Shown in pieces: positions 146 to 15,738 of a DNA stretch of 64,000 bases (positions within the stretch are counted from its first letter, which is position 1; every line of letters starts with the position of its first letter). The translations under genes and the position numbers were made by a program. This stretch comes from Sporocytophaga sp. (lineage in GTDB: Bacteria; Bacteroidota; Bacteroidia; Cytophagales; Cytophagaceae). The notes under the pieces were generated by a model that was not told the DNA's origin, made no database searches, and saw nothing but the letters and a program-made list of their open reading frames with translations. The stretch spans positions 1 through 64,000 of the forward strand of contig NZ_JAGHZZ010000022.1 of assembly GCF_017745095.1 (NCBI RefSeq). The letters run 5' to 3'.

Positions 146-1192
146 ATGGAAGATACCACTGGTCCTTCAGATAGTAGAATCATAAAGTATATCGATGCAA
201 TCCATAAAGAGAGATGGGTGAGTGTTGCGGTCAGGTATGATGAGTTTTCAAGGTTTACTTTGACTTTTATTTTACCTATTAAAAAACACTTACTTGATAA
301 ATCTTTAATTACATATTTCTATCACCGTAAGGGGTCTAACAATAATGTTATTCAATTAAATTTTGTTACTTCTCCATTTTATCTTCAAAGAGAAATAAAA
401 CCATTTCTAATTGATATGCTTAATAGTTATTTCGGAGAAGAATACTTACAATTAAATTATAATATAACCACCATAGATATGACTATGTGTGAACATAAGC
501 TTGGACTTGATGGCATCGACTTACAAAATCTTAAGTTATTTTCTACAGAAGATTTATATACAAGTCCTATCACTTATTCCATTGGTGTACAAGGAGGCAA
601 GGCGTTATCTGAACTGTTATCTGTCTCGTCAGAAATCCTTTTGTTTGAGGTGTCTTCAAATGATCATTTTATTCAAAGCCAGGATTGTATTGAAAAATCA
701 ATGACTTTTAATCTTATCCTTCTATATTATTTTATTCCTGATAAAAATAGTCAATACGAGTTTTTGTCCTGGGTTTATGAAAGTATGCTTACTCAAATGG
801 ACAATAAATCGGCTAGTGTGCTAACAGAGTTGGAGACCTCTTATCTTGAACAAAGAGAGCTGCTTTCAGCTTATGTGGATTATATTGAAGATACCTTATC
901 ATCTGCAGAAGTATTTGAAGATGACTGGATGAATGACTGGAATAAAGCTTGCTATAAGTACAAGAATTTACTTAATGAATTAAGCGGTTCTGGAAAGCTA
1001 ACTATGCCTTATGATGTAAAAGACAATCCAACAATCCACTGGGCAATTGATAACAAAACTTATCAGAACTGGCAGATAGCTTATTTCATGGTGTCTTCTA
1101 TAAATGGACAGTTAGGAATTAATTTCAATACTGAACTAAATATATTGTTTTGGCTCAAAAAGGTATTTCAAGAATTGTATGTGAATGATTAG
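146..1192 (+). CDS. Stand-alone SpaB_C-like (lanthipeptide elimination / thiopeptide-type) protein A
   Basis: A 348-residue soluble protein that I read as a stand-alone relative of the C-terminal glutamate-elimination domain of LanB dehydratases. Visible support is a family-like middle segment (about residues 145-165, YSIGVQGGKALSELL then a Ser-rich helix) that matches the usual YGG...ala..LF..dS layout, and a C-terminal SIN-QLGI---ELN motif resembling the end of SpaB_C domains. It is a clear paralogue of the protein at 4307-5296: both share FEDxWxNDWxKxCxK, then P-D-K spacing, then QxW....Y...SINxQLGI...ELN. No glutamylation (LanB N-terminal) domain is fused to it or seen elsewhere in the window. 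It faces the minus-strand gene block across an 18-bp gap. In known systems such domains eliminate glutamate from glutamylated Ser/Thr or catalyse thiopeptide cyclisation; which applies here is unknown. The family call is from memory of motifs. Confidence 0.6.
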   Translation: MEDTTGPSDSRIIKYIDAIHKERWVSVAVRYDEFSRFTLTFILPIKKHLLDKSLITYFYHRKGSNNNVIQLNFVTSPFYLQREIKPFLIDMLNSYFGEEYLQLNYNITTIDMTMCEHKLGLDGIDLQNLKLFSTEDLYTSPITYSIGVQGGKALSELLSVSSEILLFEVSSNDHFIQSQDCIEKSMTFNLILLYYFIPDKNSQYEFLSWVYESMLTQMDNKSASVLTELETSYLEQRELLSAYVDYIEDTLSSAEVFEDDWMNDWNKACYKYKNLLNELSGSGKLTMPYDVKDNPTIHWAIDNKTYQNWQIAYFMVSSINGQLGINFNTELNILFWLKKVFQELYVND

Positions 1193-1209: not shown

Positions 1210-3207
1210 TCAATCGATTAGTTCCTTGAATTTGTTAATAGATCCCGCAAAGAAAGCTAACAGGTTTATTTTTCCTTCAGCTTTTTCACCTTCATTGATA
1301 TAAAAGCAAAATGATTTTATTCTTGACATCAGGAAGTTAAAGTTTTGATCTTCCGGAAGGGATGTGAAGTCAAAGTGGAGCCATTGATAATCTTGTTCTA
1401 TATTTGCTTTGGTTAGACTTTTTATGGAAAAATCATTTTCGTTTTCATCTCTGGCCACAATATCCATAGTTAAACTGGCACTATTGTTTCCACTCATTAA
1501 TATCATAATATGTCTGTTTTCTTTTTGAGAAAGGTCAATATATAAATCAAGACTTAAAGGGTGCTCTGATTCTTGTAATGACAAGCGAAAATATTCATCA
1601 TCATCTTTGTTATAAGATATCGTGATAATTTCATTGTCAGCATCGGATTTAATTTTGTAAGCGTTGGAATATAAATCAGCATCTAAAAGGTCCGCATTTC
1701 CAGTGTCAAATTCATTGAAATAATAGTATCGCTTTTGGACAGGAGAGAATATTTTGGTTAAACTTGCCTGGTCCTGATAATATTGTGCTTTTCCATTATT
1801 CAGCCAGTTAATTACATCAAAGGTACTCAATGAATAAGGAAAGAATATTTCACTCTCAGGATTCCAGAAATCCATGAGGATGAAATTTTCTTTATTTATA
1901 AGTTCTTTAAGCTTATTCTTATCGTGATATTTTAAAAAGCAAACCTTATTTTTTACAGGTATATTCTGGAAGTTGTTTATTTCATTAGTGTTATCTTCTT
2001 CATGTGAAGCATCCATCTTGAAATAAATATTATCCCATACTATTTTGATTTTTCCCTCTTCCCATGATTTTAATGCATCTTTTTCAGATCTGAATTTTGT
2101 AAAATGTATTTCAATATCATCAAGTTTTCCAATAGGATATTGAACTCCATAGGTATGCCTGAAATCATGAATGTTATTACTTTCTGATAAATCAATGAAT
2201 TTGATTTCCTTGTTGATGTAATAACTAAACCTTTCAGTTAGTTTGACAAAATCCTTATTGTAAATACGTATTCCAATGAAAGGAGTGAGCTTTGGGAAGT
2301 TAAAAGCCTTGTATAATTCCTCACCCCAATTATCATCACTAACTATGGTAAATTGTTTATTATTTAGAGAATCCGGGTTTAAAGGCTTTCTGAATTCACT
2401 TTTAATCCAGGGTAAATTTTTTCTATAAAGATTATAAATTCTTTTTAGATGAATATTTTCATGAAAGTCTCTGTAGAGCTCTTCAATGCTAAGGTAGTTC
2501 AGTGAATATTTTTGTTGATCTATATGTTTACTCCACACACCTCCCGAATGAATAAGGTAAACACCTCCAAAGAAGTTGTGTACATAACCTTTTCCTTTGT
2601 TTAGCAATGTCCAGAAAATCTGAGTATCCCAACAGTATCTATTCTTTTCGAAATGTTGAGTATCCTGCATGGCACTATTTCTGAAAACCATTGTCAGCGT
2701 TTGTGTCAGCCACTTTTCAAAATAGTTTTCCTGGCCAAATTCAAATCCTTCTGGTTTATCAATAAAGAGTTCAGGGTGAAGATCTTCTTCATATTTCTGA
2801 GTATCCGTATAAAACCTTTTGTATCTGTGACAAGAAATCACATATTGAGGATTTTCGTCAAGAAATCTAATTTGCTTTTTTATTTTATCAGGGTCGGTCC
2901 AGTAGTCGTCACCATCCAGAGTGGCTATGTATTCTCCTGTGCATGATCTGAAATTATGCAGGCAGTTTTTTGAGACTCCGAGATTTTTTTCATTTAATAT
3001 CGGTCGAATGATCTCAGGGTATTTCTTTTGATAACTTTTAATTATTTCTCTTGTATTATCTGTACTGCAATCATCACTTACTACAATTTCATATTTATAG
3101 TCATGATTCTGAGATATAATGCTGTCAAGGGCTTTTGCAATGTATTTCTCATGATTATAAGTAGTCATTGCAACACTGAATTTCAAAGGATAGCTTTGAA
3201 TCATCAT
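1210..3207 (-). CDS. Family 2 glycosyltransferase fused to DUF1919 and a C-terminal sandwich-like domain
   Basis: 665 residues in three parts. Residues 1-230 are a GT-A family 2 glycosyltransferase: SVAMTTYNHEKYI at the start, VVSDDCSTDNT for nucleotide binding, and the metal-binding LDGDDYW. Residues about 285-445 match DUF1919 (WGEELYKAF, TPFIGIRIY, DIEIHFTKFRSE, KIVWDNIYFK), a domain known from exopolysaccharide loci. The last 150 residues are strand-rich and may bind carbohydrate; I do not recognise them. It is the last gene of a tight minus-strand set with the glycosyltransferase at 3217-4269 (9-bp gap) and the SpaB_C-like protein at 4307-5296, so it probably acts on the same product. 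Whether the acceptor is the cluster's peptide or an envelope glycan cannot be told from sequence. Confidence 0.75.
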   Translation of the reverse strand: MMIQSYPLKFSVAMTTYNHEKYIAKALDSIISQNHDYKYEIVVSDDCSTDNTREIIKSYQKKYPEIIRPILNEKNLGVSKNCLHNFRSCTGEYIATLDGDDYWTDPDKIKKQIRFLDENPQYVISCHRYKRFYTDTQKYEEDLHPELFIDKPEGFEFGQENYFEKWLTQTLTMVFRNSAMQDTQHFEKNRYCWDTQIFWTLLNKGKGYVHNFFGGVYLIHSGGVWSKHIDQQKYSLNYLSIEELYRDFHENIHLKRIYNLYRKNLPWIKSEFRKPLNPDSLNNKQFTIVSDDNWGEELYKAFNFPKLTPFIGIRIYNKDFVKLTERFSYYINKEIKFIDLSESNNIHDFRHTYGVQYPIGKLDDIEIHFTKFRSEKDALKSWEEGKIKIVWDNIYFKMDASHEEDNTNEINNFQNIPVKNKVCFLKYHDKNKLKELINKENFILMDFWNPESEIFFPYSLSTFDVINWLNNGKAQYYQDQASLTKIFSPVQKRYYYFNEFDTGNADLLDADLYSNAYKIKSDADNEIITISYNKDDDEYFRLSLQESEHPLSLDLYIDLSQKENRHIMILMSGNNSASLTMDIVARDENENDFSIKSLTKANIEQDYQWLHFDFTSLPEDQNFNFLMSRIKSFCFYINEGEKAEGKINLLAFFAGSINKFKELID

Positions 3208-3216
3208 TTGTATTGT

Positions 3217-4269
3217 CTAGGAAACGAAAATTTTTTCTGTAGAAAAGTTCTTGTAAACAGTGCCTTTTCCAAATCCATTTTTATTTACCCCAGCTCTTTT
3301 TTCTATGTTGGAAAGAAAGTGTCCGTAGTTGGTGATTAGTGGAAGGTCATAAGAAAGCTTAGCAAGAAATTGCTCATGTGTGATGTTGTAATAAATGGTA
3401 TTATTATAATTTAAGCAATCATCTTGTTCAGTAAATGTGTATGTAGGTTTACTTTCAGTTGACTTAATAATAATTTTGTCTCCTGCTTTTTCCCATTGTA
3501 TGGATTCCCATTGGTTGTTATCAAGGACTGCAGGGGCTGGGGTTTGGGTATTGGGTGATAGAATACCTTTGTGTGCAGTTCCGTTTTTATACAATACTAA
3601 AACAATTGACCTTTCATGCGTTTCATAGTTAATGTATATTTTATGGAAATAATTTGTGAAGAATTCGTTCTCAACTCTATTTTCATTTCCATGCTTAATA
3701 GCATGAAGGAAGTTCAAGTCCATTATAATGTTTTCTTTTTTACCGCTATTTACAAGTCTTTCATAAAGGTCATCATCTTCAAATCCATATCCACTCATTC
3801 TTTCATCGTAGCCTGAGACATCCATGAAGTCTTGTTTTGATGCGCAAAATCTACCCAATGCATCTCTGAGGTAATAAAACTTTCTTTTTGTATCAGGTAC
3901 CAGAAAAAGGTTTTCCTGCTCCTCAAATCTTTGGGAAACATATTCGGCAAAACCTTTCCCTAGGAAGTTATCTGCATCAGTATTACAAATGATGTCTCCG
4001 CTTGCCAGTTTGAACATGAGATTTCTGGAATGACTTCTGTCAAAATAGTCGGCTTCGTCATATCGGTAATATACCAGAATTCCATTCTCTATATATTCGG
4101 ACATTTCCGACTTTATCCAACTTGAAAGGCCGTCAGAAGAGCTGTAATCCATTACTATAAACTCCAGGTTGCCGTAAGACAAATTGTTTTTTATATTTTG
4201 AGGAAGGGTTTGCTTTAGGTGATGCAGTCTGTTCATACAGACAGTGCAAAATGATATTTTATGTTTCAT
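3217..4269 (-). CDS. Family 2 glycosyltransferase, paralogue of the one at 5438
   Basis: 350 residues. The first 215 are a GT-A fold: ISFCTVCMNRLHHLKQTLP at the N-terminus, VMDYSSSDGL, the metal site NTDADNF, and a galactosyltransferase-like acceptor region (SGYDERMSGYGFEDDDLYERL). The last 130 residues are a strand-rich domain ending in FGKGTVYKNF. The protein at 5438-6493 has the same order of motifs and the same FGKG--Y-NF ending, so the two are duplicates sitting on opposite strands around the SpaB_C-like gene. It is in a probable operon with the neighbours on both sides (9 bp and 37 bp). Substrate unknown; a family 2 enzyme beside a C39 exporter recalls glycocin S- or O-glycosyltransferases, but that is only context. 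Confidence 0.8.
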   Translation of the reverse strand: MKHKISFCTVCMNRLHHLKQTLPQNIKNNLSYGNLEFIVMDYSSSDGLSSWIKSEMSEYIENGILVYYRYDEADYFDRSHSRNLMFKLASGDIICNTDADNFLGKGFAEYVSQRFEEQENLFLVPDTKRKFYYLRDALGRFCASKQDFMDVSGYDERMSGYGFEDDDLYERLVNSGKKENIIMDLNFLHAIKHGNENRVENEFFTNYFHKIYINYETHERSIVLVLYKNGTAHKGILSPNTQTPAPAVLDNNQWESIQWEKAGDKIIIKSTESKPTYTFTEQDDCLNYNNTIYYNITHEQFLAKLSYDLPLITNYGHFLSNIEKRAGVNKNGFGKGTVYKNFSTEKIFVS

Positions 4270-4306: not shown

Positions 4307-5296
4307 TTAGGTGTTAGCTTCCTCAGCTATTAGGGCAATGCATTCTTTGATTGTATAAATCAAATTGAGTTCATATGCATTCAAAATACCCAATTGTGAA
4401 TTGATAGATCTCAGGTAATATTGAATTACGAGCCATTTTTGCTGGTCTTCTTCGCTAGTGCCTAAATCTTCATTAAGTTTGAAATCTTCAGGCGCGATGA
4501 ATTCACCATTATTTTGAAGTGTGTTAACTTTATTGTTTATTTTGCAACACAGTTTATACCAGTCGTTAAGCCATTCGTCTTCAAATTTATCATTATCAAG
4601 TATGGTAGAAGTAATATAGCATACATAGTCTCTTAGATTTTCCTTCTGTTCACTAAAAGTTGATTGCAAACCTTCCAGCAATTCATTTTTGAATTTTTCC
4701 TGATCTTGACCTCCCTGAGTTAATTTTAAGATGTTGTTAAAAAATGATTCATAAAAGCAGGAAGCATTTTCTAGATTTTTGTCAAAAGCAAGGAAAAGAA
4801 CTACGTGAAGTTGAATGCCTAGACCAATTGCAGTGTCTACGTTCCATTCATCCCCTGTAGCTTCAATGAAATCAAGTATTGTAGATGATGATTCTGACAG
4901 CAATTCTTCTGCTAGGGTTGAAGCTTGCAGACCGCCAGTTTCCATAATATCAAATAAGAAATAATCATTAATATGAATATGATTATTTGGATATGGCAAA
5001 AACCAATCGTTAACAGGCAGCTCAATTTTTTTGGCAGGAGCAGGATGAATTTTAAAAAACTCTATAGCCTTATGTCTTGCAATAGATTTTATTAAATCTC
5101 TGTTGTTTTCATCATTGATCTCACACATTATAATCACATTCTCTCCGCGATCAAAACTACGGTTGAAAATTACTTTGCTGGTCAGCTCCTTATCATATAA
5201 TTCATCTTTGATTGGCAGAACTACATCGTGAATGATTTTTTCTATTTCGTTATGATAAAGAGAAATAGATATCCAGGGGTTGCGCAATGCTTTCAT
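4307..5296 (-). CDS. Stand-alone SpaB_C-like (lanthipeptide elimination / thiopeptide-type) protein B
   Basis: 329 residues and the better match of the two paralogues to the thiopeptide-type bacteriocin biosynthesis / SpaB_C family. The N-terminus has the characteristic PWISISLYHNEIEKIIHDVV..P (the W--L-YH...L---V-P opening of these domains). The middle has DIMETGGLQASTLAEELLSESS, which parallels the family's YGG.....LF..DS segment, and the end has SINSQLGILNAYELN. In full-length LanB proteins this domain removes glutamate from glutamyl-Ser/Thr to give dehydro residues; free-standing versions can also be pyridine synthases. It is first in the minus-strand set and is transcribed divergently from the glycosyltransferase/exporter operon at 5438 across a 141-bp gap. 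No tRNA-Glu-dependent glutamylation domain is encoded in the window, so it may work with a partner outside it or do different chemistry. Confidence 0.65.
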   Translation of the reverse strand: MKALRNPWISISLYHNEIEKIIHDVVLPIKDELYDKELTSKVIFNRSFDRGENVIIMCEINDENNRDLIKSIARHKAIEFFKIHPAPAKKIELPVNDWFLPYPNNHIHINDYFLFDIMETGGLQASTLAEELLSESSSTILDFIEATGDEWNVDTAIGLGIQLHVVLFLAFDKNLENASCFYESFFNNILKLTQGGQDQEKFKNELLEGLQSTFSEQKENLRDYVCYITSTILDNDKFEDEWLNDWYKLCCKINNKVNTLQNNGEFIAPEDFKLNEDLGTSEEDQQKWLVIQYYLRSINSQLGILNAYELNLIYTIKECIALIAEEANT

Positions 5297-5376
5297 TTTA
5301 ATGTTTTTAAAAATGTGTGTTTGATCTGTTTACAGAAAATTAATGATTCAAATTAGGTATATATTTTTTGGAGGTT

Positions 5377-5392: not shown

Positions 5393-5437
5393 ATCAATAA
5401 AAAATGTGGGACCTATTTTTATAGAAAAATAAATTCA

Positions 5438-6493
5438 ATGGGTCTATTAAAAATCTCTATTTGTACGGTTTGCATGAACAGGCTTCATCATATAATGCAA
5501 ACCCTTCCTGCAAATATTGAAAATAATAAAGATTATCCTGAAGTAGAGTTTGTGCTGCTGGATTATAATTCTTCTGATGGTCTGGAGGAATGGGTAAAGG
5601 ATAATATGGACATTTACCTAAAAAGTGGTGTTCTAAAGTATTATCGTACAGAAGAACCGGCTTTCTTTGACAGGACGCATTCAAGAAATTTATTATTCAA
5701 GCTTGCAACAGGAGAAATTATATCTAATGTCGATGCTGACAACTTTACCGGAATAGGATATGCTGCATATCTCAATGAGGTATTTTCCAATAATAATGAT
5801 ATTTATGTTGTAGCTGATACCAAAAAGAGGTATTACTTTTTGAGAAATGCTTTCGGTCGTTTTGCTTGTCAGAAGAAGGATTATTTATCAATTGGTGGAA
5901 TGGATGAAACCATGAAAAGTTATGGGTCAGAAACAATTGACTTATATGAAAGATTGTCAAATCTGGGAAGGAAAGAATATGTCATAAGAAATACTAATTT
6001 GCTTAAAGCGATTAGTCATGCTGATGAAGAGAGGATCGAAAATGAGTTTTTTCTTAAAAATATAGATAGGTTTTATAATAAGTACCTTTCTTATGATTCT
6101 TCAGAATTGCTTTTTTTATTCAAAGATCACTCTTATGAAAAATGCAAAATAGTTTCGGAATTAGTCGAAACTCATTTGCCAGCCACATTATTGGAAGGTT
6201 CTCTTGAAAAGGGGACCTGGTCTGAAGATGGAGAAAACGTCAGGTTAAATAATAGTAAGAATTATAAGAAATCAGACAATGGTAGACTTACAGAATCTGA
6301 CAATAATGACGGAGCTTTTTATCAGATTGACGATGCTCGATTTCTTCAGAATGTTGCCAAGAATTATTCATTTATAGTTAACAACGATAAGTTAATTCAG
6401 AATAAAAAAGACAAAAGCCTTGTGGTGAATGGTGAATCATTCGGCAAAGGCCGTGTGACTTATAATTTTGAAACTTTGGTAAATATATCATAA
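5438..6493 (+). CDS. Family 2 glycosyltransferase, first gene of the exporter operon
   Basis: 351 residues, paralogous over its whole length to the protein at 3217-4269: ISICTVCMNRLHHIMQTLP, LLDYNSSDGLEEW, the RTHSRNLLFKL helix, the metal site NVDADNF, GGMDETMKSYG, and the terminal FGKGRVTYNF. The N-terminal 215 residues are a GT-A fold; the remainder is an unrecognised strand-rich tail. The acidic residues after MKSYG differ from the paralogue (SETIDLYERL versus FEDDDLYERL), so acceptor or donor choice may differ. It is followed after 9 bp by the C39 exporter gene and is clearly co-transcribed with it. The role is inferred to be glycosylation of the cluster's product before or during export. 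Confidence 0.8.
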   Translation: MGLLKISICTVCMNRLHHIMQTLPANIENNKDYPEVEFVLLDYNSSDGLEEWVKDNMDIYLKSGVLKYYRTEEPAFFDRTHSRNLLFKLATGEIISNVDADNFTGIGYAAYLNEVFSNNNDIYVVADTKKRYYFLRNAFGRFACQKKDYLSIGGMDETMKSYGSETIDLYERLSNLGRKEYVIRNTNLLKAISHADEERIENEFFLKNIDRFYNKYLSYDSSELLFLFKDHSYEKCKIVSELVETHLPATLLEGSLEKGTWSEDGENVRLNNSKNYKKSDNGRLTESDNNDGAFYQIDDARFLQNVAKNYSFIVNNDKLIQNKKDKSLVVNGESFGKGRVTYNFETLVNIS

Positions 6494-6502
6494 GTACTGC
6501 GC

Positions 6503-8695
6503 ATGAAGAAATTTCCATTCTATTTTCAGCTCGATCAGATGGATTGTGGGGCTACGTGCCTTAGAATGATTGCTAAGTATTATGGTAAATCTCTTGCCAT
6601 TGAAAAGATCAGAGATAAGTGTTATGTAGGAAGAGATGGAGTTTCTCTTCTCGGTATCAGTGATGGTGCCGAAAATCTGGGTTTTCATACCCTTGCAGTA
6701 AGACTTTCTTATGATGTTCTTGCGAATGAAGCTCCTCTTCCTTGTATACTCTATTGGAGAGAAAAACACTTCCTGATTCTTTATAAGGTAACAAAGACTA
6801 AATTGTATGTTGCAGATCCCGCTATCGGTTCAATAACCTATACACCTGAAGAGTTTAAGAAAGCATGGATTATTCCAAAAGCTAATGAAACTCCTGAGGG
6901 CTTTGCTTTAATGCTTGAGCCAACTCCTGCATTTTATGAAGATGAAGATAATGTCGAAACCAAGAAATCCGGGATAAAGCATTATCTAAAGTATCTCAGA
7001 CCATATAAAAAATATTATTTCCATCTGATATTAAGTCTGAGTGTAGCTACGGTTATTTCATTGTTATTGCCCTTTCTAACTCAATCAATGGTAGATGTGG
7101 GTATCAACAATCAGGATGTCGACTTTGTATATGTAGTGTTGATTGCTCAGATAGTTTTATTTCTGAGCAGCAAGTCAGGTGAGTTTGTAAGAGGGTGGAT
7201 TTCATTTCACATGATCAGCAAGGTGAATGTGACCATTCTGTCTGATTTTTTAGTGAAGCTCATGAAACTTCCTGTAGCCTACTTTGACAGGAAGACTCCA
7301 GGAGATATTCTTAAGCGAATTGAGGATCATGAAAGGATTCAATTGTTCTTAACAACTACATTGGTTCACTTTGCATTCTCGTTGATGAGCATGGTCATAT
7401 TCGGGTGTATTCTGGCCTATTATAGTGTCGGACTCTTTCTAATATTTGCGATAGGTAGTCTTCTATATTTTACCTGGATTTTTTCATTGCTTGCGAAAAG
7501 AAAAGTACTTGATTATAGAAATTTTGACCAGGCAGTTCTTAGTGAAAACAATACCATTGAACTGGTGACTGGTATGCAGGAAATAAAGTTGCAGAATTGT
7601 GAAAGACAGAAGCGGTGGGAGTGGGAAAAGATTCAGGCAAAAAGATTTAAGCTGGGGATTGATGGTGTTAGACTTGGACAGATAGAGCAGACAGGTTCTT
7701 CCATTTTGTATGAAGTAAAAAATATTCTTTTGACATTTTATGCAGCCATGCTAGTGATTCAGGGAGAAATGACCCTGGGTATGATGCTTGCAGTCCAATA
7801 TATTGTCGGACAGCTCAACTGGATGACTGTTGATATCATTCGTTTTGTTCATGATACTCAGAATGCTCAGTTAAGTATTAGCAGGTTAGCGGAAATTCAT
7901 GAAATGCCGAATGAAGAAACGGAAGAATCTGTAATGGATGCAGATATTGAGCGGGTTCAGGATATAATATTTGAAAACGTCTCCTTTCAGTATGGAGGTC
8001 CGAGATCTAAAATGGTATTGGAAGATATCAATCTAAGAATTCCACACAATAAAGTAACTGCTATTGTTGGGACAAGTGGAAGCGGAAAGACAACCTTATT
8101 ATCGCTCCTGCTAAAGTCTTATAAGGTAACACATGGAGCTATTAAATTTGGCAAATCAAATATCAATAATATCAGCTTTAAATCCTGGAGGAAAAAATTT
8201 GCCTGCGTAACTCAGCAAAGTTTTATTTTTTCTGATACGATCGCTAGAAATATTGCAGTTGGTGAAGAAATTATTGATAAGAAAAGGATGAAAGAAGCTA
8301 CCATTACCGCTAATATCCGTGATTTTATAGAGGAGCTTCCTATTGAATATAATACAAGAATAGGGGCCAGCGGAGTGGGTCTTAGTCAGGGGCAGAAGCA
8401 AAGAATATTGCTTGCAAGAGCAGTATATAAAAATCCTGAGATATTATTACTTGATGAAGCTACAAACTCTCTGGATGCCAATAATGAGAGAGTGATTATC
8501 AATAATCTTAATGAGTTTTTTAAAGGTAAAACAGTGGTTGTTGTGGCGCACCGACTAAGTACAGTGAAGGATGCAGACCAGATAGTGGTATTAGAAAAAG
8601 GAAAGATTGTAGAAGTTGGCAATCATGAATCATTGATTAAAAGTAAAGGAGCATACTTTAATCTCGTTAAAAATCAATTGGAACTTGCAAGCTGA
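6503..8695 (+). CDS. Peptidase-containing (C39) ABC exporter for a double-glycine leader peptide
   Basis: 730 residues with the full bacteriocin-exporter plan. Residues 1-135 are a C39 cysteine peptidase with the triad visible as Cys15 (DQMDCGATC), His89 (EKHFLILY) and Asp105 (VADPA). A six-helix ABC membrane domain follows (about 165-450), then the nucleotide-binding domain: Walker A GTSGSGKTT near 523, signature LSQGQKQR near 626, Walker B ILLLDEA near 648 and the switch His in VAHRLS. The signature has LSQGQ in place of the usual LSGGQ, seen in other exporters. These proteins sit in the inner membrane, cut leaders after GG and pump out the rest. The only visible substrate candidate is the 57-residue peptide at 12129, which ends at GG. 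The stop overlaps the HlyD start by one base. Confidence 0.93.
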   Translation: MKKFPFYFQLDQMDCGATCLRMIAKYYGKSLAIEKIRDKCYVGRDGVSLLGISDGAENLGFHTLAVRLSYDVLANEAPLPCILYWREKHFLILYKVTKTKLYVADPAIGSITYTPEEFKKAWIIPKANETPEGFALMLEPTPAFYEDEDNVETKKSGIKHYLKYLRPYKKYYFHLILSLSVATVISLLLPFLTQSMVDVGINNQDVDFVYVVLIAQIVLFLSSKSGEFVRGWISFHMISKVNVTILSDFLVKLMKLPVAYFDRKTPGDILKRIEDHERIQLFLTTTLVHFAFSLMSMVIFGCILAYYSVGLFLIFAIGSLLYFTWIFSLLAKRKVLDYRNFDQAVLSENNTIELVTGMQEIKLQNCERQKRWEWEKIQAKRFKLGIDGVRLGQIEQTGSSILYEVKNILLTFYAAMLVIQGEMTLGMMLAVQYIVGQLNWMTVDIIRFVHDTQNAQLSISRLAEIHEMPNEETEESVMDADIERVQDIIFENVSFQYGGPRSKMVLEDINLRIPHNKVTAIVGTSGSGKTTLLSLLLKSYKVTHGAIKFGKSNINNISFKSWRKKFACVTQQSFIFSDTIARNIAVGEEIIDKKRMKEATITANIRDFIEELPIEYNTRIGASGVGLSQGQKQRILLARAVYKNPEILLLDEATNSLDANNERVIINNLNEFFKGKTVVVVAHRLSTVKDADQIVVLEKGKIVEVGNHESLIKSKGAYFNLVKNQLELAS

Positions 8696-10023
8696 TGGTA
8701 GAGATAGAAGATAATATTAGAAGGAGTGATGCTGTACATGAAATGATGGCCCGCACTCCTCCATGGATTGCAAGGACTGGTAGCATATTACTGTTTGTAT
8801 GGTTTTGTATATTGCTAGCATTAAGTTTTATTATAAAGTATCCTGAAATACTTGATGGACCTATTAATATTACTACTAAAACTCCTCCCGCAGAATTGGT
8901 AGCCAAAGCAAACGGGAGGATTAACCTTTTGGTAGCGAATAATGATATGGTCAGTAAAGATCAGATTATAGCCTATATAAAAAATCCAGCCTCTTTTGAT
9001 GAGGTGGTGAGACTGAATAAGCTCATGCCTTTTTTCGGTGACCTGGTAAATAATCCGACTAAAATTAGGTCTAAAATGGATTCTATTCCTAACCTTACTA
9101 ATCTCGGACAGGTCCAGAATGCCTATAATGCTTTTGTCAGTAAGTTGTTTGCATATGACCTAACTTATACACTTGAAAAAAATAAGAGGCTTGTCCAAAG
9201 TAATCTTGAACAGGTAGGAACTTTAGAAAGAAAAGCTATTCTTCTGGATGAAAAGGATATGGTTCTTCAACAAGAATTACAGATTGCTGAAGATAATTTT
9301 AAAAAGGATCAGTCATTGTATGAAAGAGGACATATCTCCAAACTTGATTATGATGCATCCAAGACTAATTTCCTTCAGACTAGGAAGAATATACAGAATA
9401 ATAGACAAGCATTGATTGAAAACAGGCAAAATCTTCAGCATCTATCTTATAGTAATAATGAACTGACTTTAAGTGATAAGGAGCAAAAAGAGTCCCTTAA
9501 TGTAGGAATAAAGGGCTCTTATAATATTCTGGTTTCAGAGCTTAAAGCCTTTAAAGAAGAGTTCTTTATGACTTCTCCAATTTATGGAAATGTTACCTTC
9601 TTTGATGTATGGAATAACAATCAGTTTGTAAATAAAGGTGATCAGGTAGCATTCATAGTAACAGATTCAAAAGATATATTAGGTAAGCTGCAGGTAAAGG
9701 GTAACAAATTCGGTAAAGTAAAATTAGGGCAAAAAGTAAGAGTGAAGCTGAATAGCTACCCAATGTCTGAATATGGAATCTTGTTTGGAAAAGTCAGTAA
9801 CATATCCAAGGTCAATAAGAATAATGTTTATGTTATTGATGTGGATCTTCCTGATACACTTATTACAACTTATAAGAAACATATTCCTTATAAGCATGAA
9901 ATGAAAGGTCTTGGTGAAATCATTACTGAGAACATGAGTATTATTGAAAGAATATTCTATCACATGAGATCTATTGGAAGAAAAGAATATATCGGTGACG
10001 AAGAACTGCAAAAAAAGCCATGA
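8695..10023 (+). CDS. HlyD-family periplasmic adaptor of the type I exporter
   Basis: 442 residues. A short cytosolic N-terminus (residues 1-27) leads into one transmembrane helix (about 28-50), then a lipoyl-like half motif (AKANGRINLLVANNDMVSKDQIIAYI), a long helical hairpin (about 150-270, with many Gln/Lys/Glu heptads), the second lipoyl half (TSPIYGNVTFFDVWNNNQFVNKGDQVAFIV) and a beta-barrel region. This is the membrane fusion protein that joins the ABC exporter to an outer-membrane channel. It is translationally coupled at both ends: its start overlaps the exporter's stop and its TGA overlaps the next gene's ATG. The TolC-like partner is probably the gene at 13503. Confidence 0.9.
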   Translation: MVEIEDNIRRSDAVHEMMARTPPWIARTGSILLFVWFCILLALSFIIKYPEILDGPINITTKTPPAELVAKANGRINLLVANNDMVSKDQIIAYIKNPASFDEVVRLNKLMPFFGDLVNNPTKIRSKMDSIPNLTNLGQVQNAYNAFVSKLFAYDLTYTLEKNKRLVQSNLEQVGTLERKAILLDEKDMVLQQELQIAEDNFKKDQSLYERGHISKLDYDASKTNFLQTRKNIQNNRQALIENRQNLQHLSYSNNELTLSDKEQKESLNVGIKGSYNILVSELKAFKEEFFMTSPIYGNVTFFDVWNNNQFVNKGDQVAFIVTDSKDILGKLQVKGNKFGKVKLGQKVRVKLNSYPMSEYGILFGKVSNISKVNKNNVYVIDVDLPDTLITTYKKHIPYKHEMKGLGEIITENMSIIERIFYHMRSIGRKEYIGDEELQKKP

Positions 10024-11222
10024 AAAAGTCAAAGAGAATATTATTTCTGGGTGGTTCAAAATTTCAGATTCCGCCTATCATATATGCCAAAGCGCAAGGT
10101 CATCATGTAATAACATGCGATTATCTTCCTGAGAATCCCGGGCATCAGTTTGCAGACGAATATTGTAATCTTAGCACCACTGATTTTGATGCTGTTTTAC
10201 AGCTGGCAAAAGAAAGAAATGTAGATGGTATTGTCGCTTATGCTTCAGATCCGGCTGCACCAACTCAAGCTTATGTGGCAAATGAGATGGGACTTCCTTC
10301 CAATCCTTATGAATCAGTAAAGATACTTGCCAGGAAAGATCTATTCAGAGACTTTTTATCTAAGCATAATTTCTATGTTCCAAAGTCAAGAAGCTTTTAT
10401 TCCTTAAAAGATTCATTAAGCTGGTTCAGAGAAATCAAAAAGCCAGTAATTGTAAAACCTGTAGATTCATCAGGAAGTAAAGGTGTTACTAAAATATTTG
10501 ATGAAAGCCAGCTTGAAGAGTCGTTCAACTATGCACTATCTTTTAGCAGAGAAAAGAAGGTAGCTATCGAAGAGTTTTTTGTCAGAGACGGGTATCAGGT
10601 TGCAGGAGATGGTTTTGTTGTAAATGGAAAACTTGCATTCAGATGCTGGGCGAATGAACATTTCGATAAGCTTTGTAATCCATTTGTTCCTATTGGTGAA
10701 AGTTTCCCTTCGATCATGACGGAGAAAACACTGGAACAAGCTCATAGAGAGACACAGAGGCTGCTTGATTTATTAAATATAACACAAGGTGCATTGAACT
10801 TTGACTTTCATTATGATAAAAACGGTGATTTTTCTTTTCTTGAATTAGGGCCTAGAAACGGAGGCAATCTTATACCAGAAGTGATAAGGTATTCTACTAA
10901 TGTAGATCTTGTCAAATATACGGTGGACTCAGCCTTGGGGATTGATTGTTCTGAGTTATCTCAGATTGAAGCAACAGGTTTTCATTCATCTTATATGTTA
11001 CATGCTCTGGAGGATGGAATTGTTAAAGATATCTGGTATAGCAAGGAGATAAGAGAGAATATTCTGGAAGAAAGCATTTTTATTAAAAAAGGAGATAAGG
11101 TTAGCAGGTTCAATGGATCTAATCACACTCTTGGAACAATGATTATGAAATTCGAATCAAGGGATGAAATGATAGAAAAGATGGACAACATGGAAAAATA
11201 TCTTAAAGTAGTGTTAGAGTAA
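10020..11222 (+). CDS. ATP-grasp ligase (carbamoyl-phosphate-synthase-like fold)
   Basis: 400 residues. The N-terminal pre-grasp domain opens with RILFLGGSKFQ, residues about 105-300 hold the ATP-grasp domain (KPVIVKPVDSSGSKGV for the nucleotide loop, GALNFDFHYDKNG and LGPRNGGN for the Mg-ATP site), and a C-terminal subdomain closes the protein. ATP-grasp enzymes activate a carboxylate as acyl phosphate and join it to an amine, thiol or hydroxyl; related members make dipeptides, amides and esters in natural-product clusters. Here the ATGA overlap with the HlyD gene ties it firmly to the export operon, which is unusual for a housekeeping ligase. One candidate role is adding a residue or amine to the free C-terminal glycine of the peptide at 12129; this is inference. 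It could instead be a nucleotide-sugar or amino-acid enzyme. Confidence 0.8.
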   Translation: MKKSKRILFLGGSKFQIPPIIYAKAQGHHVITCDYLPENPGHQFADEYCNLSTTDFDAVLQLAKERNVDGIVAYASDPAAPTQAYVANEMGLPSNPYESVKILARKDLFRDFLSKHNFYVPKSRSFYSLKDSLSWFREIKKPVIVKPVDSSGSKGVTKIFDESQLEESFNYALSFSREKKVAIEEFFVRDGYQVAGDGFVVNGKLAFRCWANEHFDKLCNPFVPIGESFPSIMTEKTLEQAHRETQRLLDLLNITQGALNFDFHYDKNGDFSFLELGPRNGGNLIPEVIRYSTNVDLVKYTVDSALGIDCSELSQIEATGFHSSYMLHALEDGIVKDIWYSKEIRENILEESIFIKKGDKVSRFNGSNHTLGTMIMKFESRDEMIEKMDNMEKYLKVVLE

Positions 11223-11239
11223 AAGTTTTTATGAGTGTA

Positions 11240-11255
11240 TGTAACTTTTGTTACA
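11240..11255. promoter_or_regulatory. 16-bp perfect palindrome upstream of the oxygenase/precursor unit
   Basis: TGTAACTTTTGTTACA, a perfect inverted repeat (TGTAAC, TTTT spacer, GTTACA), 70 bp before the start codon at 11326. The second copy, with one base changed, is at 5377-5392 upstream of the other plus-strand unit. The pair suggests a shared regulator or shared promoter for the cluster. As RNA it could also form a weak hairpin just after the ATP-grasp gene. Confidence 0.5.
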
Positions 11256-11325
11256 GAGTTCTAGCATGTTCAGATTTAATTTAGCTTTATAATTATTCGT
11301 TAATTAATTTTTAAACTAAATATTC

Positions 11326-12078
11326 ATGTCACCTACTTTTATAAAAGATATCAGCTACTCTAAATCAAAAGACTTTCCGGAACAATTGAAGAAATTGATT
11401 AAAGAAACTAAGGTTGTACATTTAAGAGATCTTCCTGAAAATATAGACTATAAAGAGTTTTATTCTGAACTTGTTCTTCAGTTGGGAGATATTGTGGGGA
11501 TAGGTGAAGATGCATTGACAGGAAATTCCAATCAGGAACAATGGACAGATATAAGATACGATAAAGCTAAGGAGAATACATTCCGCCATAGTAATACCAG
11601 ACAACCATTGCATACGGATGCTGCATATGCAAGCTTTGATCTAGATGTAAATTTTTTCTTTTGTTTGGAAAATGCTGAATTAGGAGGAGCGACAACGTTT
11701 GTGGATGCTGAATCTATCATATACATCCTTTCAAAGTATGAACCTGAGCTGTTTAATAGAATTCAGAAAACAGAAGTAAAGTTTGGTAAAGGTGAGGATC
11801 AGAGAAAGACAAGAAAGATCATATATACAGAAGACTCAGTGCTTAAGTTAAACTGGAATTATTATAGAGTTTCTCCAGAGAACACTGATGAGGCAAAGGC
11901 ATTATCTGAGGATTTTCATAATTTTCTTGAAAACAGAATTGTAGCTGCTGGATTGCAAACTCCTATATCATTAAAGGTCGGTGATGGCTTGTTTTTTCAC
12001 GATACTACTATATTGCATGGAAGAAATTCTTTCTTTGGAGAAAGATGTCTGATCAAAGGTGGGTTTAACTTTAACTGA
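11326..12078 (+). CDS. Fe(II)/2-oxoglutarate-dependent oxygenase (TauD/clavaminate-synthase type)
   Basis: 250 residues. The iron-binding facial triad is visible as His96-x-Asp98 (QPLHTDAAY) and His231 (DTTILHGRNSF); Arg233 or Arg240 is a candidate for 2-oxoglutarate binding. FFFCLENAELGGATTFVDA is the typical strand segment after HxD. This family hydroxylates, desaturates or halogenates unactivated carbons, often on amino acids, free or bound to carriers. It begins a new unit 104 bp after the ATP-grasp gene and lies 50 bp upstream of the putative precursor peptide, so its substrate is probably that peptide or a residue joined to it (inference). Confidence 0.85.
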   Translation: MSPTFIKDISYSKSKDFPEQLKKLIKETKVVHLRDLPENIDYKEFYSELVLQLGDIVGIGEDALTGNSNQEQWTDIRYDKAKENTFRHSNTRQPLHTDAAYASFDLDVNFFFCLENAELGGATTFVDAESIIYILSKYEPELFNRIQKTEVKFGKGEDQRKTRKIIYTEDSVLKLNWNYYRVSPENTDEAKALSEDFHNFLENRIVAAGLQTPISLKVGDGLFFHDTTILHGRNSFFGERCLIKGGFNFN

Positions 12079-12128
12079 TTACAGCATCAATATAATACTT
12101 ATACAGAAATAGATTTAATTATTTTAAC

Positions 12129-12302
12129 ATGGAAAATTTAGACGAAAAAGCATCCGAAAAGCCTGAAGTGCCTAAGGAAAATGAAGGTTCTGAGTCAAAA
12201 GGGAAGAAAAAGAAAGTTTCTCTTTCTGAATTCAAAGTTAAGAGCTTCGTGACTGACGTAAAAGTCGAGCAGATGCAGTTCCTAAAAACTGCAGGAGGTT
12301 AA
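12129..12302 (+). CDS. Putative RiPP leader/scaffold peptide ending in Gly-Gly with no core
   Basis: A 57-residue peptide, very hydrophilic and Lys/Glu-rich at the N-terminus, then KKKKVSLSEFKVKSFVT and a C-terminal FLKTAGG followed at once by TAA and TAG. The LSxFKVxSFVT...GG layout is what I know from leaders of Bacteroidota lanthipeptides (pinensin-like) that C39 exporters cut after GG. Relative to the GG, positions -7 (Phe) and -12 (Val) are hydrophobic as expected; -4 is Thr rather than the usual Leu/Met. What is missing is any core: shifting frame at the end gives only 5-8 more codons with no Cys and no Ser/Thr-rich stretch. It has no clear Shine-Dalgarno sequence, as is usual here. It lies between an oxygenase and a glycosyltransferase gene. 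Confidence is high that it is a real gene, lower for its role. Confidence 0.75.
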   Translation: MENLDEKASEKPEVPKENEGSESKGKKKKVSLSEFKVKSFVTDVKVEQMQFLKTAGG

Positions 12303-12350
12303 TAGTATCAATTAAGTAAAATTCAGATTTATTTCTATTTCATTTCATTC

Positions 12351-13463
12351 ATGGATAAAGTGCCGGAAGTTTCATGTATATGTATCACTCACAATAGAGT
12401 TGATATGTTCAGGAGAGCAAAGAAGTGTTTCTTGAATCAGACCTATGAAAATAAAGAATTAGTGGTTTTGTTTGAAAATGATCCTGCTACTGAAGAACAT
12501 GTTAGAAATTCTTCTGAATATTCATATTTTGAGCTCCATGAATTGCCAGAGGCCTTTCCATTTATCATTGTTCAGTTTGAAGATGAAAACGGGGAGGCCT
12601 ATAATTCTGCTCTGAGACAAAAAGCATTGTTAAGAAACAATGATGGTCATGTCTTAACTTACATTAACAGCAAATGGGAATACATGTACATTAGTCCTTT
12701 AGTTTATGAGTTTACACTTATTCCTGTTAATGATTATTCATTTAAGCTATTGTGGAATGAATTGTGGGTAAATATTAATAAAGATGGATCTGTCATATTA
12801 ACAGCCCATGAAACGGATGCTCTAATTTATGGAAGCACTGAATTAGTTGACACATCCGTACGTCTGGACCTTAAATGCTTTGAGCCTAACAACAGAAGTT
12901 TAGAAAGATACGGCTGGGAGAAAAAGGCAGTGAGGCCTAATGCTGATAGCAATATTGTTTTCTACAAAGTGATGGCAAAGCAAAGGATGTCTCTTGGAAT
13001 GAAGAGAAACCTTTCTATAAGAGCAGCTCATGGTGAGTATATATGTGTCTGGGATGATGATGATTATTATTCTGAAAATAGAATATCCAATCAGATGAAT
13101 TTTCTTCGGTTCTCTGAGAAAATGGCTTGTTCTCTCGCCTATGAGATATTTTTTGATCATAATTCTGGAAGGGCTTACTATAATTTTGAACGTTCTACTG
13201 GTCATGAAAACTCGCTTCTTTTCAGTAAAAAAGATGCAGGTCAATATGGCAATCTGAATGTAGAGGAAGATACTCCGCTATTGCTTAATTTCTATAACAG
13301 AAATCAACTTGCCATAATGGATGATCCTGAACTGTATGTCTATAATTTTCATAAAAGAAATACCTGTACGAATTCTCACTTTCAGATGTTTATAGGAAGA
13401 TCAACCCTTCTTGATAATGAATATACTTTAAAGATAAAAGAGCTTCTTGAATTGCCCGTGTAA
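12351..13463 (+). CDS. Family 2 glycosyltransferase with a ~145-residue insertion in the GT-A fold
   Basis: 370 residues. The first 45 are a normal family 2 start (VSCICITHNRVDMFRRA, FLNQTY-N-ELVVL). The expected continuation, RMSLGMKRNLSIRAAHGEYI with the metal site VWDDDDYY, appears only at about residue 207. Between them lies an insertion (about 50-200) rich in Trp, Tyr and strands (WEYMYISPLVYEF, WNELWVNIN-DGS), which I do not recognise but which resembles a small beta domain. The acceptor region then ends in a short helix. It starts 48 bp after the precursor peptide and in the same reading frame. Context suggests it glycosylates the cluster's product, with the insertion as a possible leader- or acceptor-binding module (inference). 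Confidence 0.75.
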   Translation: MDKVPEVSCICITHNRVDMFRRAKKCFLNQTYENKELVVLFENDPATEEHVRNSSEYSYFELHELPEAFPFIIVQFEDENGEAYNSALRQKALLRNNDGHVLTYINSKWEYMYISPLVYEFTLIPVNDYSFKLLWNELWVNINKDGSVILTAHETDALIYGSTELVDTSVRLDLKCFEPNNRSLERYGWEKKAVRPNADSNIVFYKVMAKQRMSLGMKRNLSIRAAHGEYICVWDDDDYYSENRISNQMNFLRFSEKMACSLAYEIFFDHNSGRAYYNFERSTGHENSLLFSKKDAGQYGNLNVEEDTPLLLNFYNRNQLAIMDDPELYVYNFHKRNTCTNSHFQMFIGRSTLLDNEYTLKIKELLELPV

Positions 13464-13502
13464 CTTTAATATTTAGTTTCTGCAAGTTGTTGAGTGAGGT
13501 AA

Positions 13503-14861
13503 ATGAACAGTAGGTTAAAAATAATCGTTATATTTTTTTTATTTGTTGCCGGAACTAAATCATATGCTCAGAATAAGTTAAATCTTGATGCATTGATAGC
13601 TCTGGCAATAAAGCAAGATTTTTCTGTTCAACTTATAGAACAGGAACTTAATAAAGCCCAGATAGAGCAAAGAATAACCAGATCCAGTATTTTGCCAACG
13701 GTTAGTTTTAATAACTGGAATGGTTATTATGATGGTAGATATTATGATCCTTTAAAGAATGATTTTTTCTATAATCCTACCCTTGTAGGAAATATGGGGC
13801 TTACGTCTACGTGGGGGATATATAATGGAGGTTATAGAAATACAAAACTTTCCATAGACCATATCAATATCAATATACAATTGCTCAATCTTGAAAAGAA
13901 GAAAAGAGAAATAAGCAGGGAAGTGATTGGTCTGTATAGTGCCATAGTCCAGGCAAATAATCTTATTGATATTTACCAGAAAAAAATAGATCTGTATGCT
14001 ACAGAGACAACAAGAATAAAAGAGCTGTACTTACTTGAAAAAGTTACTGCAGTTGACACTTCTGTTGTTGCATTGACAAGAATTGATGCAGAGGATAAAC
14101 AACTTCAACTTAAATACAAGCTTGAATTGGATCTTCATCAGCTAGGATTGCTAACTAATGAGAACTTATTGCTTAGCGATATTGAAAGCAATCCTGAATT
14201 TAGCTTTGATCAGTTTGATCAGAATGAATCGGTATACAGTATTTACGATGATACGACAGCGCTCAAAAATTCCTCTATCAGCTACAGAATTAAAAGTTTA
14301 GAAATTGAGAAAGCCCGATATTCTACAGAGTTACAGAAAGCACAGTTTAAACCATCGGTAAAATTTGAAGCAGGACTGAATACAGGTTACTCTTCTAATC
14401 TCAGGAATGAAGCTGCCAATAGAAACTCTGAGGGTAAATATGTTTTCTTAAAACAGTTTGAAAGCAATAGATATAATTCTACAAGTTTAAATATCTATAT
14501 CCCTGTATTTGATAGAAGAAACAGGCTTCTGGAGCGTCAAAACAGAGTGGGAGAAAATATTGCCAAGATCGAAGAGGCACAGACTGGAAGAAAGATTTTT
14601 ATAAAGTATTCTTTGGCCAAAAAAGAGCTAGGAGTAAAATATAAGAAACTGAAAATTTCTCAGGTACAGGTAACAGAGATTAATAAACTTCTTATAAACT
14701 ATAAGGAGCGATTTGCGCTTGGAAGATTACGTGTCAATGATCTTTTGATTGCTAATGAAAAGTTGATTGATGGTGAAATAAATTTTAGCAACAATTACTT
14801 CGAATTTTATAAAGCCCTTAAAACCTTTGAGCTTGATTATACAGGCAATCTCAGTTTCTGA
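13503..14861 (+). CDS. TolC-like outer-membrane channel of the type I exporter
   Basis: 452 residues with a signal peptide (residues 1-22, hydrophobic IVIFFLFVAGTKSYA then Q). Two long-helix/strand repeats follow, with typical openings LNLDALIALAIKQDFSVQLIEQEL and the later KNSSISYRIKSLEIEKARYSTEL, separated by beta-barrel strands. This is the outer membrane efflux protein family (PF02321). It is the last gene of the plus-strand set and completes a peptidase-ABC/adaptor/channel secretion system with the genes at 6503 and 8695. It ends 7 bp before the convergent DUF1080 gene. Confidence 0.88.
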   Translation: MNSRLKIIVIFFLFVAGTKSYAQNKLNLDALIALAIKQDFSVQLIEQELNKAQIEQRITRSSILPTVSFNNWNGYYDGRYYDPLKNDFFYNPTLVGNMGLTSTWGIYNGGYRNTKLSIDHININIQLLNLEKKKREISREVIGLYSAIVQANNLIDIYQKKIDLYATETTRIKELYLLEKVTAVDTSVVALTRIDAEDKQLQLKYKLELDLHQLGLLTNENLLLSDIESNPEFSFDQFDQNESVYSIYDDTTALKNSSISYRIKSLEIEKARYSTELQKAQFKPSVKFEAGLNTGYSSNLRNEAANRNSEGKYVFLKQFESNRYNSTSLNIYIPVFDRRNRLLERQNRVGENIAKIEEAQTGRKIFIKYSLAKKELGVKYKKLKISQVQVTEINKLLINYKERFALGRLRVNDLLIANEKLIDGEINFSNNYFEFYKALKTFELDYTGNLSF

Positions 14862-14868
14862 TTTTGGT

Positions 14869-15738
14869 TTAAAAGTAGCCCGCATATTCAGAAGGAAGGT
14901 TATTTATAGGTTTTATCTGTATATCTTTGAAATATACTTCAGCAGCTTCGCTTTGTAACTGTATTCTACCTTTTGTTAATGGTTTAAGAATGCCATCCAC
15001 ATAAGATGAATTGGATAGTGCCATTACGACTTTGCCATTTACGATGTGCAGACTTTTGTCCCCATATGTGATTAGCTCCAATTCATTCCATTTATTATCA
15101 GGGAGCTCGTTATTACTTCCTGCCTTGCAATAATTGCCTGCAGAGGTTCCTGATCCAAATGAAGTCAAGATACCCTTTTGAGTAAATGTATATGGTTGGT
15201 TATCGGTTTCTTTTATGGCTTTAATATTTATTTTGGAATTGGCTATACACCAATAATCTCCCATACTTTCTTCGATGATCTGAAACTCTTGAGACAACAT
15301 CCACGATCTCCAATAGTCAACGCCACATTCTCCTTGGGAATGATATAGAATTCCTGAATCTTTTGCTTCATTTAATCTTGGTATCCATTTTTTAGTACCC
15401 CACTTTACCTTTAGTTTGAAATGATAGTTTTCAAATGATTCTTTAGTATAAACACATCCATAAATTTCCCCTGAAATCCTTAGCACTGGTTCTCCATTTT
15501 CTTCAATAACAGAAAATACATTGTTGATATTTTTATTATAACCTATTGGCTTTAGTAAGTCTCCGGAATCATTTACTGGAGCTTCTCCTTTATAGCCATC
15601 TTTATGCGGAAAGCTTAAATATATATCCCATTTTGATAGATTTTTATCAAGCAATGTGATCCACTGAGCTTTACGTCCACTTGCTCCTATAAATATTATT
15701 AGGATTATGACTGATGAAATGATGATAAGCTTTTTCAT
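14869..15738 (-). CDS. DUF1080 (3-keto-disaccharide hydrolase-type) secreted protein
   Basis: 289 residues with an N-terminal hydrophobic segment (residues 4-20) that is a signal peptide or anchor. The body matches the DUF1080 / PF06439 concanavalin-like fold: ITLLDKNLSKWDIYL at the start, ENYHFKLKVKWG, DSGILYHS, SQEFQIIE, NKWNELELITYGDKSLHIVNGKVV and a final GRIQLQSEAAEVYFKDIQIKPI. Members cleave 3-ketoglucosides or bind glycans in the periplasm. It converges on the TolC-like gene and is probably not part of that cluster. Substrate unknown. Confidence 0.85.
   Translation of the reverse strand: MKKLIIISSVIILIIFIGASGRKAQWITLLDKNLSKWDIYLSFPHKDGYKGEAPVNDSGDLLKPIGYNKNINNVFSVIEENGEPVLRISGEIYGCVYTKESFENYHFKLKVKWGTKKWIPRLNEAKDSGILYHSQGECGVDYWRSWMLSQEFQIIEESMGDYWCIANSKINIKAIKETDNQPYTFTQKGILTSFGSGTSAGNYCKAGSNNELPDNKWNELELITYGDKSLHIVNGKVVMALSNSSYVDGILKPLTKGRIQLQSEAAEVYFKDIQIKPINNLPSEYAGYF

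Follow-up and report, generated by a model that had tools for sequence, protein, structure and literature searches.

A pinensin-type leader peptide that ends at its Gly-Gly motif and its possible role as a carrier

The peptide and its gene cluster

We analyzed a window of 64,000 nucleotides from Sporocytophaga sp. that starts at base 1 of contig C14, so the gene cluster described here is cut at its left. A coreless leader peptide of 57 amino acids, our proposed carrier, is encoded at 12129..12302 on the forward strand. The open reading frame (ORF) runs from an ATG at 12129 through 57 codons to a TAA at 12300-12302, which is followed by an in-frame TAG at 12303-12305. The translation, MENLDEKASEKPEVPKENEGSESKGKKKKVSLSEFKVKSFVTDVKVEQMQFLKTAGG, ends in FLKTAGG and matches the NCBIfam model NF038180 (leader_pinensin) with 29.7 bits (cut-off, 24), covering model positions 1 to 28 of 28. 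An earlier sequence-only reading had described a 57-residue leader layout that terminates at GG with TAA-TAG, and the ORF and the model match confirm it: the peptide is a pinensin-type leader ending exactly where the core should begin.

The genes from 6503 to 14861 all lie on the forward strand. They encode, in order, a C39 peptidase-ABC exporter with its catalytic Cys, His, and Asp present (6503..8695), an HlyD-type membrane fusion protein (8695..10023), an ATP-grasp ligase resembling L-amino-acid ligases (10020..11222), a TauD/TfdA-type Fe(II)/2-oxoglutarate oxygenase (11326..12078), the peptide, a GT2-type glycosyltransferase (GT_c; 12351..13463), and a TolC-type outer membrane efflux protein (13503..14861). 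The ATP-grasp gene, the proposed source of the loading enzyme, overlaps the HlyD gene by 4 bases, and the peptide, exporter, HlyD, ATP-grasp, and oxygenase genes apparently form one operon. Further left lie a glycosyltransferase (GT_b; 5438..6493, forward), a stand-alone LanB C-terminal/TbtD-fold protein in which the usual HxRLR and IHM motif residues are missing (4307..5296, reverse), another glycosyltransferase (GT_a; 3217..4269, reverse), a GT2-DUF1919 protein (1210..3207, reverse), and a second, divergent LanB-C-like protein (146..1192, forward).

The left part of the cluster sits at the end of contig C21 and is contiguous in three congeners. It encodes a third LanB-C-like protein, a DegT-type sugar aminotransferase (closest to the NCBIfam model DesI but scoring under its cut-off), and two further GT2-DUF1919 proteins, the gene for one of which is cut by the contig end on C21. 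The congeners' clusters hold six glycosyltransferase-type genes. No LanC cyclase was found with Pfam among the scanned cluster proteins (twelve ORFs of the window and two of the four proteins from the left part). Of the three GT2-DUF1919 genes in congener G003, two are each divided between two frames (L031/L032, composite 8852-10847 and 13461-15471), through errors in the metagenome-assembled genome (MAG) or decay. The divergent intergenic stretch at 5297-5437 is promoter-like, with DNA strongly conserved in the four genus genomes.

We looked for a core outside the reading frame. In the window, 48 bases separate the stop from the next gene; the distance is 43, 44, and 48 bases in the congeners and 94 bases in the Bacteroidia MAG G425. 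In the Flavobacteriales MAG G029, the end of a facing gene lies 38 bases from the peptide. With the next gene only 38 to 94 bases away where visible, there is no room for a core. The RNA at the stop is no more structured than its shuffles (z, +1.65), which, together with the next gene 48 bases off, speaks against a core reached by recoding. As for a separate core gene, no ATG-initiated ORF of at least 12 residues was common to the cluster gaps of the four genus genomes among the ORFs listed, partly the three longest per gap. Two candidates were rejected. A 29-residue ORF just before GT_b (within 5297-5437) in the window and G001 does not keep its ATG in G002 and G003 and lies in the conserved promoter-like DNA. 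A hydrophobic ORF of 18 to 23 residues left of the third LanB-C-like gene is present in G001, G002, and G003 and absent from the window's genome.

Homologues, core-bearing relatives, and selection

Coreless homologues were found in seven genomes from three families: the four genus members (G000 to G003), G029, G175, and G425. All seven end in (K/N)TAGG followed by a stop and keep the tail MQFL(K/N)TAGG; their N-terminal halves diverge, and overall identity to the window's peptide ranges from 44 to 96%. Within the genus, the peptide is single copy in all four genomes (93 to 100% identity). In six genomes, the homologue is accompanied by the same types of genes, encoding an exporter, LanB-C-like proteins, and glycosyltransferases. 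In the seventh, G175, the contig stops 173 bases past the peptide and so cuts the locus, and searches of that genome for the exporter (E ≤ 1e-100) and for LanBC (E ≤ 0.01) gave no match. After the G175 peptide gene there is an inverted repeat that looks terminator-like by eye (L076:743-890), and a phage-type integrase-like sequence lies upstream. The orthologue alignment proposed by the sequence-only reading thus gave the outcome that it had named as support for a scaffold, with every end at GG and the same exporter, LanB-C, and glycosyltransferase set in all but the contig-cut genome.

The family is rare, since a phylum sample gave a match in 1 of 395 genomes, the window's own. Among 84,980 species scanned, the peptide was matched at three loci, in G003, G029, and G425. 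In a class sample, NF038180 matched 7 of 395 genomes at E ≤ 0.001, with G029 (31.2 bits) and G175 (22.3 bits, under the curated cut-off of 24) among the coreless finds; the coreless peptide of G425 gave no NF038180 match at E 0.01. An order sample of 390 genomes gave matches at E ≤ 0.01 in 10 of them. Five of these carry coreless peptides (the four genus members and G425), and core-bearing peptides came from G489, G455, and G426, along with a second peptide of G425. Two further matches were discarded, L095 (G417) being no leader and L096 (G446) no open frame. In the order of G029, 2 of 10 genomes matched (G029 and G175). Within the window's family, the peptide search matched 7 of 19 genomes at E ≤ 1, strongly only in the four genus members, and no copies were found in the plasmid and viral contig collections.

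Core-bearing pinensin-type leaders look different. All 29 that we compared, including L061 and L093 (the latter from G426), continue for 28 to about 100 residues past their GG-like site. The spacing from SFVT to that site is 13 residues in 25 of them (counting L057, L063, and L069, whose site reads GGG), 12 in one, and 15 in three (L092, L094, and L093), compared to 15 in all seven coreless peptides. Further, the N-terminal part before the motif has 24 to 37 residues in the coreless family versus 5 to 11 in 26 of 27 core-bearing leaders. Two truncated pinensin-type leaders, counted in neither group, stop before any GG (L023:1501-1566 in G010 and L067:1501-1563 in G065) and exemplify what decay looks like among these leaders.

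Constraint on the peptide resides in its second half. In none of the six pairwise comparisons of the four genus genomes do codons 29 to 57 show a nonsynonymous change; synonymous codon changes number 2 to 12 per pair. Over the whole peptide, dN/dS is 0.04 to 0.07, not below that of the two genes flanking the cluster (0.03 to 0.07). The exporter (0.01 to 0.02), HlyD, and ATP-grasp genes are the most constrained of the cluster (0.01 to 0.03; three pairs each), with 0.04 to 0.08 for the glycosyltransferases and 0.14 to 0.18 for the LanB-C-like protein at 146-1192, the least constrained; all of these genus ratios are rough, as many dS values exceed 1. At the level of sequence, these comparisons show that purifying selection holds the peptide to end at GG and that a C39 exporter, LanB-C-like proteins, and glycosyltransferases are inherited along with it.

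The sequence-only reading had kept open a decayed precursor, a sequence error, or a strain-specific mutation. Decay would account for the joint absence of the core and the LanB N-domain (see below), as after loss of a lanthipeptide pathway, and truncated leaders such as L067 and L023 do exist. However, those leaders do not end at GG, the same end recurs in seven genomes of three families, not one replacement has entered codons 29 to 57, and the exporter's dN/dS is about 0.02. Because the orthologues stop at GG with the same gene types alongside, these alternatives fall away: a sequencing error or strain mutation is ruled out by the seven genomes, and decay is excluded for practical purposes.

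The exporter and the LanB-C-like proteins

We placed 20 C39 exporters in a tree. The six that belong to coreless clusters group together as a single clade (support, 100/100), which adjoins the exporter of G010 (97/97). The G010 cluster is of the lanthipeptide type, with two LanB-C proteins and a glycosyltransferase 46 to 48% identical to GT_a and GT_b of the window. Given this exporter kinship and the lanthipeptide-like character of the G010 cluster, the coreless system probably arose from a G010-like cluster.

Aligned to LahT (6mpz), the window's exporter has the catalytic Cys, His, and Asp, and the triad is also intact in G001 to G003 and G029. The earlier claim of an intact C39 triad therefore stands for the window and G029 but does not extend to G425. 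In that genome, the exporter (L079:6307-6370; contig coverage, 1.5) has Ala in place of the catalytic Cys (DAGAAS; GAC GCT GGC), with Gln, His, and Asp remaining, and C39 release is thus impossible there as sequenced. The tail of the G425 peptide is nevertheless unchanged. If the Ala is real, something other than C39 cleavage preserves GG in that lineage; a loading site or a docking shape would be in keeping with this, and C39 release would not.

The whole peptide might instead be the substrate, glycosylated on Ser/Thr or Lys by the glycosyltransferases of the cluster and then exported or retained uncut. The six glycosyltransferase-type genes of the congeners and the G425 C39 domain without its Cys are in keeping with this, as are Ser39 and Thr54, the invariant Ser/Thr positions of the seven homologues. 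Yet Ser39 belongs to the SFVT motif, which is common to core-bearing leaders, and the remaining Ser/Thr positions vary. Moreover, the C39 domain is intact in the genus and in G029, and if it cut after GG, the leader would stay in the cell. We regard modification of the whole peptide as distinctly improbable.

C39 domains cut after GG and make hydrophobic contacts at positions -4, -7, and -12 (PMC6363468). The spacing of 15 places Thr at -4 of the coreless GG, which is unusual for C39, whose groove usually takes a hydrophobic residue at this position. An alternative reading places the true cut after LKTA, which aligns without gaps to the LKGG of pinensin leaders, so that Gly-Gly itself would be a two-residue core. 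In this ungapped, by-eye alignment to the leaders with a spacing of 13, the hydrophobic residues L52, M49, and V44 fall at -4, -7, and -12. Thr-Ala, however, is absent from the C39 sites given in PMC10885120 (GG, GA, and GS), and the core-bearing leaders L092, L094, and L093 carry GG at spacing 15 as well, with a core after it. A minimal core of this kind is highly improbable.

We found no match to the LanB glutamylation domain (PF04738) in any of the four genus genomes (E ≤ 0.001), which bears out the earlier remark that no LanB N-terminal domain is seen. The domain does occur in G004 and G010, members of the same family with core-bearing pinensin-type leaders. The elimination-type domain, for its part, is kept and multiplied in the coreless clusters; the window's LanBC has counterparts in G029 (44% identity) and G425 (35%). 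Since a PDB sequence search with LanBC found no match, we turned to a fold search. The model of the 4307-5296 protein (mean pLDDT, 89.8) best matched the thiopeptide pyridine synthase TbtD with bound leader (5wa4; E, 7e-11; TM, 0.73; 14% identity), followed by other cyclases and class I dehydratases. Its score with the NCBIfam TbtD/PbtD model is 20.5 bits (cut-off, 325), and the remaining LanB-C-like proteins are tied to it through sequence only.

The Arg of HxRLR (HLRLR) and the His of IHM, which from work on NisB we take to be the elimination-catalyzing residues, are present in G004 and one G010 protein and replaced in the proteins of the window, G029, and G425. Glutamate elimination is therefore unlikely here, and a leader-binding or new role for the LanB-C-like proteins seems more likely. 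Bacteroidetes class I leaders have been described to end in GG and occur with C39 proteases, along with extra LanB-C-like proteins of unproven role (PMC7268733).

Loading candidates and the possible carrier role

The ATP-grasp protein, a ligase of the amide-forming type, aligns over its full length with 4dim (E, 2e-30) and over most of it with the L-amino-acid ligase 3vot (E, 5e-16), and its dN/dS of 0.02 to 0.03 is near that of the exporter (three pairs each). In the genus, the ATP-grasp and TauD genes separate HlyD from the peptide. G029 and G425 have HlyD directly adjoining the peptide, and no ATP-grasp or TauD homologue was found in the stretches examined from them. The ligase and the oxygenase thus appear to be genus restricted among the coreless clusters. 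The earlier reading had listed an ATP-grasp ligase, LanB-derived proteins, an oxygenase, and glycosyltransferases near the peptide; all are present in the window, but the first and the third were seen in the genus only.

Interspersed with the LanB-C and glycosyltransferase genes of G029, or adjacent to them, are genes for an adenylation-carrier protein, a condensation protein, a flavoprotein, and a phosphopantetheinyl transferase. The stretch after its coreless cluster (L074:12249-19999 and L102) holds nonribosomal peptide synthetase (NRPS) adenylation-carrier, condensation, FAD protein, and second adenylation protein genes, and by eye also lysine N-hydroxylase-like and aminotransferase-like genes; the sequence of G029:C5 is masked past about base 24,000. 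The visible cluster part of G425, which runs to a contig edge past the peptide and two glycosyltransferase genes, holds neither the ATP-grasp/TauD pair nor the NRPS set; its leftmost portion includes a GH18 chitinase-like domain fused to a LanB-C-like domain (L098:16246-18066). About 7.6 kb further left in G425, beyond ordinary-looking genes, there is an ORF (L098:5976-8684) similar by eye to a double D-Ala-D-Ala ligase, which we leave out of the cluster.

In the plasmid collection, the sole annotated collection searched, the nearest relative of the ATP-grasp protein is encoded in a sugar cluster of Brachyspira (53% identity). This gene, from a Brachyspira hyodysenteriae plasmid (L073:5102-6301), lies beside a radical SAM/SPASM gene, and no GG peptide was found in the gap adjoining it. 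Because this closest plasmid relative sits in a sugar cluster, with no GG peptide in that gap, the ligase may act on sugars instead of the peptide. The leader could then work in trans: it would never be loaded, and by binding the LanB-C-like proteins and the C39 domain without a covalent link it would recruit or activate them for a sugar-based product of the glycosyltransferases, DegT, and the ATP-grasp protein. Apart from the Brachyspira relative, the many sugar enzymes of the cluster, the binding of leaders by TbtD-type proteins (5wa4), and the leader-and-GG shape retained in G425 with its Cys-less peptidase are consistent with such a role. It leaves the free GG C-terminus in all seven homologues unexplained, however, as a docking leader could bear extra residues, and we consider it unlikely.

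Among known systems, the pearlin pathways offer the nearest comparison. PEARLs extend a carrier peptide by C-terminal phosphorylation, a protease then releases the product, and the carrier is reused in the cell (PMC9303977, PMC10885120); the release proteases are M50 or TldD/E (PMC10885120). An origin of PEARLs from ATP-grasp proteins has been proposed (PMC11117183, PMC11962472). Of the pathways treated in the cited literature, only those with PEARLs are described as assembling products at the C-terminus of a ribosomal carrier (PMC9303977, PMC10885120, PMC11117183). Like the pearlin carriers TglA, TmoA, AmmA, and BhaA, the coreless peptide is a short, ribosomal, leader-like peptide without a core, whose C-terminus is the proposed loading site, and the proposed acyl phosphate activation would be ATP-grasp-like chemistry as in PEARLs (PMC9303977, PMC11117183). 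Unlike pearlin systems, the genus genomes lack a match to the PEARL-type LanB N-domain (a statement based on the PF04738 search of G000 to G003), and stand-alone ATP-grasp or NRPS proteins are present instead. Release would be by a C39 exporter rather than M50 or TldD/E, and the GG end is free.

The cluster shares with the pinensin-family class I lanthipeptides of Bacteroidota the NF038180 leader, the GG end, the C39 exporter, and LanB-C-type proteins, and its nearest exporter outside the coreless clade, of the 20 in the tree, belongs to the lanthipeptide-type cluster of G010. It differs in the peptide without a core, the four genomes without a PF04738 match, the lack of LanC in the scanned cluster proteins, and the replaced LanB-C motif residues. 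The fold and stand-alone form of the 4307-5296 protein recall the TbtD/PbtD pyridine synthases, but there is no dehydrated core peptide to cyclize, and the NCBIfam score is far below cut-off. A graspetide-like reaction would need core residues for the ATP-grasp enzyme to modify on side chains, and none exist. LysW-type amino-group carriers are small carriers whose C-terminal residue is loaded by an ATP-grasp enzyme; LysW ends in Glu, loaded on its side chain, unlike the coreless peptide with its Gly-Gly and C39 site. With the defining features checked and missing, the cluster is neither a lanthipeptide nor a PEARL system; its function is most likely that of a carrier-peptide system in which loading and release are different. 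The literature on coreless or truncated leaders and PEARL-like carriers, judged largely from bibliographic entries, holds no description of this peptide family.

Since several distant bacteria keep the coreless end, the peptide is probably a reusable handle for building and exporting a small molecule. The best of several models, to which we give an even chance, is that it is a carrier loaded at its C-terminal Gly and freed by the exporter, the loading itself being proposed. The ATP-grasp ligase would phosphorylate the C-terminal carboxylate of Gly57 and join it to an amine, of an amino acid or amino sugar. The leader part would dock the oxygenase, the LanB-C-like proteins, and the glycosyltransferases while the load is modified; the C39 domain would then cut after GG, and the product would leave through HlyD/TolC. 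In G029, the adenylation-carrier and condensation proteins may take the loading part. A peptide that ends at GG makes sense if a C-terminal addition is cut off again, because the encoded form is already the product of the C39 cut; for the same reason, each release would regenerate the carrier for reuse.

Against the carrier model stand the ATP-grasp gene not conserved in the other families, the sugar-cluster setting of the nearest plasmid relative of the ligase, the Cys-to-Ala change in G425, Thr at -4, G175 without detectable exporter or LanBC, and a whole-peptide dN/dS no lower than that of the flanking genes. The scaffold model of the sequence-only reading thus gained the orthologue pattern that it had named as support, but its enzymes fared unevenly, with the ATP-grasp ligase and oxygenase in the genus only, NRPS genes in their place in G029, and neither set in the visible part of the G425 cluster.

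We tentatively suggest a broader, new logic in Bacteroidota, somewhat less probable than not, in which a lanthipeptide leader lost its core and became a reusable Gly-Gly carrier. Loading would need no aminoacyl-tRNA and would be the task of interchangeable amide-forming modules, ATP-grasp in the genus and NRPS adenylation/condensation in G029; glycosyltransferases would extend the amino-acid or amino-sugar load, and the C39 exporter would provide a thioesterase-like release that restores the encoded carrier. If true, a PEARL-free family with C39 release would widen the carrier-peptide logic and join ATP-grasp with NRPS chemistry, and the proposed descent of PEARLs from ATP-grasp ligases would become testable in an independent case. 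A pinensin-type leader ending in TAGG-stop would also serve as a search handle for clusters that precursor-based mining could discard as truncated.

A few further genes lie apart from the coreless clusters. An extra LanB-C-like protein is encoded outside the cluster in the window's genome (G000:C3; L087:9062-10042), near what by eye are an acyl-carrier-like small protein and an M50-like metalloprotease. The window also holds, at 29431-33798, an ORF of 1455 residues in which, by eye, a heavy-metal RND pump appears to be joined to an outer membrane protein of the TolC-like kind.
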